Assembly: GCA_025330725.1 (NCBI GenBank)
Contig: JAIWND010000026.1
Span: 124,001-188,000, forward strand
Source: Chlamydoabsidia padenii
Lineage: Eukaryota > Mucoromycota > Mucoromycetes > Mucorales > Cunninghamellaceae
Length of the DNA: 64,000 nucleotides
Direction of reading: 5' to 3'
Of this stretch, positions 40,233 through 43,867 are shown in pieces. Numbering within the stretch: position 1 is the first letter of the stretch; every line of letters starts with the position of its first letter. The position numbers and the translations under genes were made by a program. The notes below the pieces were generated by a model. It was not told the DNA's origin, ran no database searches, and worked only from the letters and a program-made list of their open reading frames with translations.

Positions 40233-41992
40233 ATGGATAAATACCAGGCAAGTTCTTCAAATGTCTCGATTACAAGAACTTGGAATACAATAACAACTAA
40301 TCATCTTTATACATCTGTCTTTATAGAAAATCGAAAAACTGGGCGAAGGTCATTTGATAAAAAAACAATAATTACAAATCTGGTTTGACTTTACTGATAT
40401 GAATTTAATATAGGTGCTTACGGCATCGTCTACAAGGCTCAAAATCGGGAAACGAATGAAGTGGTTGCTTTAAAACGGATCCGCTTGGACAATGAAGAGG
40501 AGGGCGTAAGTAGGAAAATACAAGGATGAAGCAAAAATAAAAATAAAAGAAAAGACTGATGTATTATTATCTTTATAGGTTCCTTGTACAGCCATCCGGG
40601 AAATATCCTTACTGAAGGAACTCAAGGATCAAAACATTGTCAGGCAAGTACACAAAAAAACGTGGTTACGAATGATATACTAACTTGATATCTTGTATGT
40701 TTGTTAATCTTGCTTGATATTGATGAAGGCTATATGATGTATTACACAAGGAAAGAAAACTTATCTTGGTCTTTGAATACCTGGACTCTGATCTCAAAAA
40801 GTTTTTGGACTCGAATGGTGGTGACCTCGACGAACTCACAATCAAGGTAAAGTAATAGTAGTAGTAGTAGTAGGGGGGGTTATCACTGTATGAATGAACT
40901 AGCTAACTTTTTTTTGTTTATCTTTCGTAGCAAATGATGTATCAACTACTCAAAGGAATAGCGTTTTGTCACGAACACCGGGTCCTTCATCGGGTAATGT
41001 CAATGAACAATAAAGGAGCAATGTGGTTATTTGTAACTAAAGCGATCGACGATTATCTTATTAGGACTTGAAACCTCAGAACTTACTGATCAACAAGGTA
41101 AATTGACAATGATATGTGACAAAATGATACTTACTCGAGCTTTTTTTTTAATGGTCATTGTAGAAAGGGGAATTGAAACTTGGTGATTTTGGTCTAGCTC
41201 GAGCATTTGGGATTCCAGTACGAAGTTACTCTAGGGATGTGGTGACACTTTGGTATCGGGCTCCTGATGTATTGATGGGATCAAAACAGTATTCCACTTC
41301 AATTGATTTATGGTCGGCTGGTTGTATTTTTGCAGGTAAAGATGCCTTTTATACTGACTATTGTAATACTAACCTCCTTTTCCATAATGCTTATCATATA
41401 GAAATGGCCTCTGGTAGCCCTTTGTTTCCTGGTAGCTCTGTATCTGATCAATTACAATGCATATTCAAATATCCTTTTTTATATATAATGATCAAAACTT
41501 ATTAACACGATATCATACTGTATATTTTACCCCTTAACTTCTTTGCACAGTTTTAGGTACCCCTACAGAAGAAACATGGCCAAAAGTATCACAGGTCCCT
41601 GAATATAAAGTAAGTAGTTTGGGGGCATCACTTGAATAGAAAACTAACTGTCTTATTTATATTTAGCGCGACTTTGAACTATTTGCACCAATACCATTAG
41701 AGTCAATGCTACCAAAACTGGATCCTCTTGGCATTGATTTATTAAAGGTAAGGATGGGAAGGATGATGGTAAAAGGAAATGTGTGTATTGATTCCCATAT
41801 GATTTACCTCAATAGAAACTACTGGAATACCCTCCTGATAAACGCATCACTGCCAGTAATGCTATAAAACGTAAGTAACAATTAAATCCATTCGTGCCAA
41901 TGAAACTCACCTGCGTTATTGTTTTAACAGATCCTTACTTTGACGATTTACGGAAAAAGGAACAAGGCACAGAAAACATATCAACCAAATGA
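40233..41992 (+). CDS. PHO85: Cyclin-dependent kinase, Pho85/CDK5 type, with PCTAIRE helix
   Basis: Ser/Thr kinase, at least ten exons. [22 protein letters not shown] gives the N-lobe start; VALKRIRLD holds the catalytic Lys. The cyclin-binding helix reads [27 protein letters not shown] and [20 protein letters not shown] contain the HRD and [23 protein letters not shown] and [14 protein letters not shown] follow, and the end is NAIKHPYFDDL. The activation segment (FGIPVR, Ser in place of the phospho-Thr, WYRAPDVL) is Pho85/CDK5-like. The helix is PCTAIRE, as in CDK16/17, not PSTAIRE (Pho85) or PSSALRE (CDK5). Intron 1 has a GC donor (CAG|GCAAGT). The intron at 41469-41548 is AT-AC (separate entry). 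Stop at 41990-41992. Confidence 0.92.
41469..41548 (+). other. U12-type AT-AC intron in the CDK gene
   Basis: 80-nt intron. The 5' end is ATATCCTTT, an exact match to the U12 donor consensus RTATCCTT. A branch-like CCCCTTAAC at about 41530-41538 (consensus TTCCTTAAC) puts the branch A about 11 nt from the 3' end, which is GCAC. Splicing ..TTC AA to AG TTT TAG.. gives [15 protein letters not shown], matching the kinase family exactly (CDK5 RLLGTPTEE). Ending one dinucleotide later, at AG, would shift the frame. No GT-AG alternative restores the frame. Confidence 0.9.
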
Positions 41993-42783
41993 TCCAGGCT
42001 CATTTTACTTTATTTAGTTTACTCTTTTGTAATAAATCATTATAACTTTATTGTCCCCATACATTACCTCTTGATTTGGTTTGGTTTTTTACATTATAAT
42101 ACAAGTGCTATAAACTTCTGGTCTTCTTTTTTTTTTTTTTTTTTTTTGTCTCGATCGTGTTATATCTTGCTAATCTAGACTTCTATTAGCACTTGCATGT
42201 CTTATTCGAACAAACACACAAAGTGGGAAGTAATCCTGGTCAACAGATTGTAACAGTCTATGTGTATCAGTGACTTTAAATGCAGCTAGGTACTGTGTAA
42301 CTATCAAGACAAAATATTGAATGACCGCCCAGAGTAGGATCAACACGGTATTATGAAACAAGGTGTACCTTTTTATCAAGTTCCTTTTTAATCATCCTCG
42401 TTAGTCATTACTGGGATGAAAGTGTTAATACATATTGTCGTTGTCATAGTTATCCATCATTTTATTAAGGTATTGTTTATCGTCCTACAGAGATAAAGAG
42501 CTATAACTATGGGAGAGGGGGAATTTCTATGTGTAAAACATAAATGGGGATTCGGCTAATAGTAGGGTATAAAGAGTTTCTATTGCTAAAGAGACAGAAT
42601 ACAGACCAGCTTTGCAAGGATGTTTAGCATTACCTACAAAAATCCTTTAAAAGAAGAAGCAAGATGAGAGGTCTAGTATGATTCTATATGCATTCCGCCC
42701 ACTTTTATTTACATCAATTTACCTTTTTACTTGAATATGGCAGAAAGTTTCAGTGGTAGCAATTGAATCATCATGACAAAAAG

Positions 42784-42815
<32 letters not shown>

Positions 42816-43771: not shown

Positions 43772-43866
43772 TCCTGGATGGCCGAGTGGTTAAGGCGACA
43801 GTCTTAAGTCCTTTACGGAAGACAACTGTTGTGGAAACACGCGAGGGTTCGAACCCCTCTCCAGGA
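43772..43866 (+). tRNA. tRNA-Leu (UAA) with a short intron
   Basis: 95-nt gene. Acceptor stem TCCTGGA/TCCAGGA is a perfect 7 bp. D-arm and A-box: TGGCCGAGTGGTTAAGGC. Anticodon stem ACAGT/ACTGT with loop CTTAAG then an interrupting ~15-nt intron (TCCTTTACGGAAGAC) after position 37. Long variable arm TGTGGAAACAC, as expected for Leu. T-arm GAGGG TTCGAAC CCCTC. Anticodon TAA. CCA is not encoded. Confidence 0.95.
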
Positions 43867-43867
43867 A

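Follow-up and report, generated by a model that had tools for sequence, protein, structure and literature searches.

Minor introns of fungi have been catalogued in a survey by Larue and Roy, 2023. In that survey (PMC10639083), minor introns are described from several early-branching fungi, with 205 in Rhizophagus and cited counts of about 4 in Rhizopus and 20 in Phycomyces, no convincing minor introns are reported for Ascomycota or Basidiomycota, and the AT-AC share of minor introns is put at 77% in Blastocystis and about 26% in human. For Phycomyces, a 2010 article (PMC2846911) gives 9 AT-AC and 8 GT-AG U12 introns by one rule. Four of the five AT-AC splicing RNAs are described from Lichtheimia corymbifera in PMC4133162, with U4atac undetected, the second half of U6atac divergent and U12 reduced. 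On the animal side, a mouse assay named Cdk5_U12_intron has been published, and that paper (PMC12332006) states that retention of the intron was raised after Rnpc3 disruption. Among the papers searched we found none naming this intron in fungal CDK5, nor one mentioning Chlamydoabsidia together with an intron; the search covered main texts, and supplementary tables may list it. Both Mucoromycota and the animal CDK5 gene had previously been known to contain minor introns, and what is added here is a shared position, scars in database gene models, and an AT bias in a set of candidates found by pattern.

The host of the intron described here, Chlamydoabsidia padenii, belongs to the Cunninghamellaceae within the Mucorales. 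In the window, by which we mean the whole 64 kb stretch of DNA analysed, a CDK5-type kinase gene runs from ATG to stop on the forward strand (40233..41992) with 13 exons and 12 introns, of which 9 are GT-AG, 2 GC-AG and 1 AT-AC. The initial annotation had counted a single GC-AG intron and otherwise GT-AG introns around the AT-AC one; within the kinase gene this count has to be raised, as two introns on the forward strand (40248-40326 and 40644-40728) have the donor CAG/GCAAGT, with the slash marking the splice site. The spliced product is identical in 301/301 residues to the public C. padenii protein P0001, which follows the AT-AC join, suggesting that the public protein came from transcript-guided annotation. 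The product matched the Pkinase profile of Pfam with 251.5 bits. Among the 60 PDB matches listed, the best was CDK5 (417 bits), with 416.4 bits for a CDC2 homologue entry that is presumably of Plasmodium type, and PHO85 was not found among those 60. Several fungal homologues in the protein search bear the name cyclin-dependent kinase 5. Judged by these matches, the product is a full-length CDK and CDK5-like, with CDK5 leading narrowly by PDB score, in agreement with the CDK5/Pho85-type assignment made in the initial annotation. Downstream of the gene, long T and A runs occur at 42127-42147 and 42784-42812 of the window. A tRNA match of 50.9 bits lies at 43772-43867; its 96 bases exceed the 71-position model, so this tRNA perhaps carries an intron.

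The AT-AC intron is the ninth of the 12 and covers 41469..41548 of the forward strand (80 nt, phase 2). It splits a Lys codon after the second base, exon 9 (41402..41468) ending in QCIF plus the AA of that codon and exon 10 (41549..41609) starting with its last A. The 5' splice site, ATATCCTTT at 41469..41477, corresponds to the U12-type donor RTATCCTT, and the element CCCCTTAAC at 41530..41538 corresponds to a U12-type branch site near TTCCTTAAC lying about 10-16 nt from the 3' end. The predicted branch A (41536 or 41537) sits 11-12 nt from the intron end, and the terminal dinucleotide AC is at 41547..41548, giving AT-AC termini, one of the two pairs (AT-AC or GT-AG) expected of U12-type introns, with the frame correct in phase 2. 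We scanned AC and AG acceptors 6-23 nt past the branch A in combination with the ATATCC donor, and only the AC at 41547-41548 gave intact KVLGTPTEE; a later AC 12 nt further (distance 22) kept the frame and lost KVLGT, and the AG acceptors all shifted the frame. Retention of the 80 nt reads 14 residues and then a stop. The joint pattern ATATCCTT-N40..70-CTTAAC-N6..14-AC matched once on both strands of the 64 kb, as against a mean of 0.02 in 100 shuffles, 1 of which had a match. The initial annotation had placed the intron, its donor, its branch-like motif and its terminal AC at these positions and had held that the exact in-frame join arises only with an AT start and an AC end; the former were recovered on re-reading the sequence, where the pattern is unique in the window, and the latter held among the acceptors scanned.

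It is very probable, in our view, that an authentic U12-type AT-AC intron occupies 41469-41548 and is cut out by the minor spliceosome of the fungus, and that it lies at the same codon and phase as an apparently AT-AC intron of vertebrate CDK5, most likely through inheritance from the fungus-animal ancestor. The sequence elements, the frame, the U11 and U6atac genes, a U12 gene scoring under its family cut-off and the paralogue's intron at the same position are shown directly, and from these we infer the removal of the intron and its common descent with the animal one. U11 and then U6atac would pair with ATATCCTT, U12 would pair with CCTTAAC leaving the branch adenosine bulged, and 3' cleavage at the AC, 11-12 nt downstream of that adenosine, would restore the kinase frame. 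The U12-type identity proposed in the initial annotation draws its support from the sequence elements, the minor snRNA genes, the intron of a paralogue, the other AT-type candidates in the genome, and homologue models from Mucoromycota and a vertebrate.

The paralogue is a second, 94% identical copy of the kinase on contig C6 (public protein P0005). Its junction reads AA/ATATCCTTTT...TTCCTTAAC...AAC/AGTTTTAGG, matching intron 9 in codon and in phase, and its AT-AC U12-type intron can also be written AA/ATATCCTTTTAC...TTCCTTAACCACTTTGAAC/AGTTTTAGG. In a comparison of four intron pairs between the copies (8 to 11 of 12), intron 9 was the best conserved, with a score of 58 versus 3.1 (sd 7.1) for shuffles, and introns 8, 10 and 11 scored 15, 15 and 11. 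Intron 10 of the paralogue starts GCAAGT where the window copy has GTAAGT. The paralogue also bears on the question of which spliceosome would act here. AT-AC introns spliced by the major (U2) spliceosome were reportedly described by Wu and Krainer in 1997, and intron 9 might belong to that divergent AT-AC subclass; however, its donor equals the U12 consensus, a branch element of U12 type is found at the appropriate spacing, and the paralogue has both the U12-type donor and the branch element, so that splicing of these AT-AC ends by the major spliceosome seems to us scarcely credible.

An AT-AC intron should defeat gene-prediction programs built around GT or GC donors, and apparent traces of this were seen in models from other fungi. 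In the first homologue search, 8000 candidates were scored and 120 were listed, P0001 among them. An internal deletion of at least 10 residues relative to P0001 was seen in 6 of the 119 other proteins among the matches listed, and five of the six deletions (P0030, P0058, P0065, P0089 and P0093) end where exon 10 begins, at residues 216-218, in models from Absidia glauca, Apophysomyces, Phycomyces, Rhizophagus clarus and Gigaspora rosea; in the sixth model, P0060, exon 7 is missing. The Umbelopsis vinacea model P0026 contains IFK-YPF, the translation of AA plus ATATCCTTT, and the window read through the intron 9 donor likewise gives IFK-YPF. A second search used a query from which exon 9 had been skipped, a deliberate bias, and gave a list of 43 additional proteins. 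In 19 of these a deletion ended at the exon 9/10 junction, starting from the end of exon 8 in 14 and inside exon 9 in 5, and the deleted models include Rhizopus delemar, Pilaira, Spinellus, Funneliformis, Paraglomus, Acaulospora, Ambispora and the chytrid Dinochytrium. Of the 120 models listed, 100 (P0001 and P0005 included) contain a strict motif spanning the junction, which is silent on intron presence.

Some of these models could also be taken to reflect an ordinary GT-AG intron, running in the window from the donor CCTG/GTAGCT at 41432 to CACAG ending at 41550, which would make the kinase 13 residues shorter. Both sites are present and in frame, the frame having been followed by hand, and similar joins occur in P0124 (GSPLFP joined to VLGTP) and in P0065, P0144 and P0147 (RPLFPG joined to VLGTP or ILGTP). 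Such joins nevertheless look like the output to be expected of software that accepts GT or GC donors only. The stretch matching the 13 dropped residues is kept in those 100 of the 120 listed models by the motif and in 15 of the 20 others by eye, and it is likewise present in the public C. padenii proteins P0001 and P0005, which makes a GT-AG intron at this place highly improbable.

The top match of the second search was P0121, a jumbled CDK5 model of the sturgeon Acipenser sinensis that is labelled UNVERIFIED_CONTAM. Its stretch 166-248, up to IFR, aligns with the CDK5 chain 9q3n_B to residue 220, after which the chain continues LLGTPTEE and P0121 continues YPLKTMK, the reading expected from a phase-2 RTATCCTT donor whose first base, by the codon, may be A or G. 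Elsewhere P0121 reads CIFA-AT-LLGTPTEE, where the T codon ACN, decoded by hand, puts AC just before the base that would complete the arginine codon. From the YPL read-through and the ACN codon, the sturgeon CDK5 intron seems to share its codon and phase with fungal intron 9 and to end in AC, IFR-YPL in this one protein model corresponding to IFK-YPF in the window. The vertebrate CDK5 U12 intron of PMC12332006 is in the same kinase family and downstream of CIFAELA, whereas the present host is a fungus and the mouse boundary is bracketed by primers: the mouse forward primer, translated by hand, falls in CIFAELA and brackets the position only. The exact boundary of the mouse or human CDK5 U12 intron was not found in the literature, PMC12332006 being the sole relevant paper among the matches; of the others, two concerned CDK5RAP2 and one combined a cdk5 reference with unrelated 'minor intron retention'.

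The comparison across Mucoromycota and animals that the initial annotation had proposed gave signs of the same intron in Mucoromycota models and in one vertebrate protein model. Because intron 9 lies at apparently the same spot as in vertebrate CDK5, it was probably inherited from the fungus-animal ancestor. As the comparison consists of presence and position, with the animal side read from protein, the positional match could instead stem from parallel gain, which we regard as unlikely given that the sturgeon model shows the same codon, the same phase and an implied AC end, and that models break at the junction in Mucorales, Glomeromycotina and one chytrid and are read through in Umbelopsis.

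Components of the minor spliceosome were searched for in the same genome. U6atac matched with 54.9 bits (Rfam cut-off 33) and carries AAGGAGAGAAC, and U11 matched with 64.2 bits, over its cut-off of 39. U12 gave a full-length match of 35.7 bits, below the Rfam cut-off of 53 (L001 1501-1672, minus strand), and this gene keeps the branch-pairing AUGAGUAAGGA and the Sm-like AAUUUUUG intact. A second U6atac match (L003, 27.9 bits) turned out to be an ordinary U6 (71.8 bits). With its predicted U12-type introns and minor snRNA genes, C. padenii resembles the other Mucoromycota Rhizopus, Phycomyces and Rhizophagus, as described in PMC2846911 and PMC10639083. The statement in the initial annotation that U12-type introns are lost from most fungi stands for Ascomycota and Basidiomycota, according to the latter survey, but it needs qualifying for Mucoromycota, where both sources show that minor introns were already known.

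No Rfam match to U4atac was obtained in the genome at E 1e-3 or E 10, the search at E 10 giving matches in 11 of 14 control genomes and matches over the cut-off in 0. A pattern made from the U6atac complement occurred at 9 places versus 7 when read backwards, and therefore without excess. Among the 9 places, 1 corresponds to U6atac read on its opposite strand, 5 repeat a single 18-letter motif, and the remaining 3 (L106-L108) had no AATTTTTG-like Sm site by eye. U4atac was not found by these searches, which does not establish its absence from the genome; it was likewise not detected in Lichtheimia corymbifera, a different genus, where the relevant passages of PMC4133162 do not describe introns. 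The protein search covered PF05253 and PF14968. Neither the U11-48K zinc finger (PF05253), whose control matched only in Sulfolobus, nor CENATAC (PF14968), whose control matched nowhere, had a Pfam match in the genome.

Other candidate minor introns were collected with the pattern TATCCTTT...CTTAAC, which occurred at 49 genome places versus 40 when read backwards, so that the raw count barely exceeds the control. What stands out are the 36 of the 49 places that have CCTTAAC, and their first base: the base before TATCCTTT was A in 30, G in 2, C in 2 and T in 2. In swapped-order control loci, the base before the donor was A in 8 of 30 (from 83 places), compared to 30 of 36 (Fisher p 4e-6). Among the purine-donor candidates obtained by this one pattern, 30/32 were thus ATATCC and 2/32 GTATCC; these 32 are a pattern-found set, neither full nor a count of proven introns, since several had no open-frame acceptor in a short scan. 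Phycomyces, with 9 AT-AC and 8 GT-AG introns by the rule of its source, differs from the 30 ATATCC and 2 GTATCC of C. padenii, the latter for the pattern set only. We joined ten candidates besides CDK5, choosing the best-looking acceptors and frames, and scanned eight of them with Pfam. Matches over the cut-off crossed the junction in three of the eight (NF-YB, VPS11 and Brr6-like) and matches below the cut-off in two (zf-TFIIIC and DNA-PKcs CC3), with one match beside the junction (IPK) and none in the remaining two. CCTTGAC was tried as a branch variant and rejected. TATCCTT..CCTTRAC occurred at 125 places versus 83 in swapped order and 53 read backwards. CCTTAAC endings, counted by eye, made up at least 38 of 100 forward rows among the matches listed (of 125) versus 11 of 83 swapped. 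Outside TATCCTTT+CCTTAAC, the base before TATCCTT was near random (A 4, G 8, C 4, T 7, in 23 of 30 forward loci).

The consensus 5' of CCTTAAC in the candidates was TTAT (T 20, T 19, A 17 and T 25 of 32), and the branch sites of this pattern-found set lean to TTATCCTTAAC. The U12 of this genome departs from the Rfam consensus, with GUAAGGAUAA in place of GUaAGGAAAA, so that the A of TTAT would pair with the changed U. At this U12-pairing position A outnumbers T by 17 to 9 of 32, a ratio that includes paralogous pairs and is suggestive only. We put forward tentatively, as a possibility that we would not favour at present, that the minor spliceosome of C. padenii has become almost specialised for AT-type introns and that its branch sites have moved towards TTATCCTTAAC in parallel with an A-to-U substitution within the branch-pairing stretch of U12, possibly together with a too divergent U4atac.

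About 25 kinase models, among those listed, are broken or read through at the intron 9 junction, which matters for annotation. If the AT bias and the match between U12 and the branch site hold when the pattern filter is removed, the drift of minor splice signals would be testable in a culturable fungus. Should intron 9 be shared with vertebrate CDK5, an AT-AC intron would have persisted at a single codon ever since fungi and animals had a common ancestor, and this in a phylum related to Ascomycota and Basidiomycota, for which no convincing minor introns are reported (PMC10639083).
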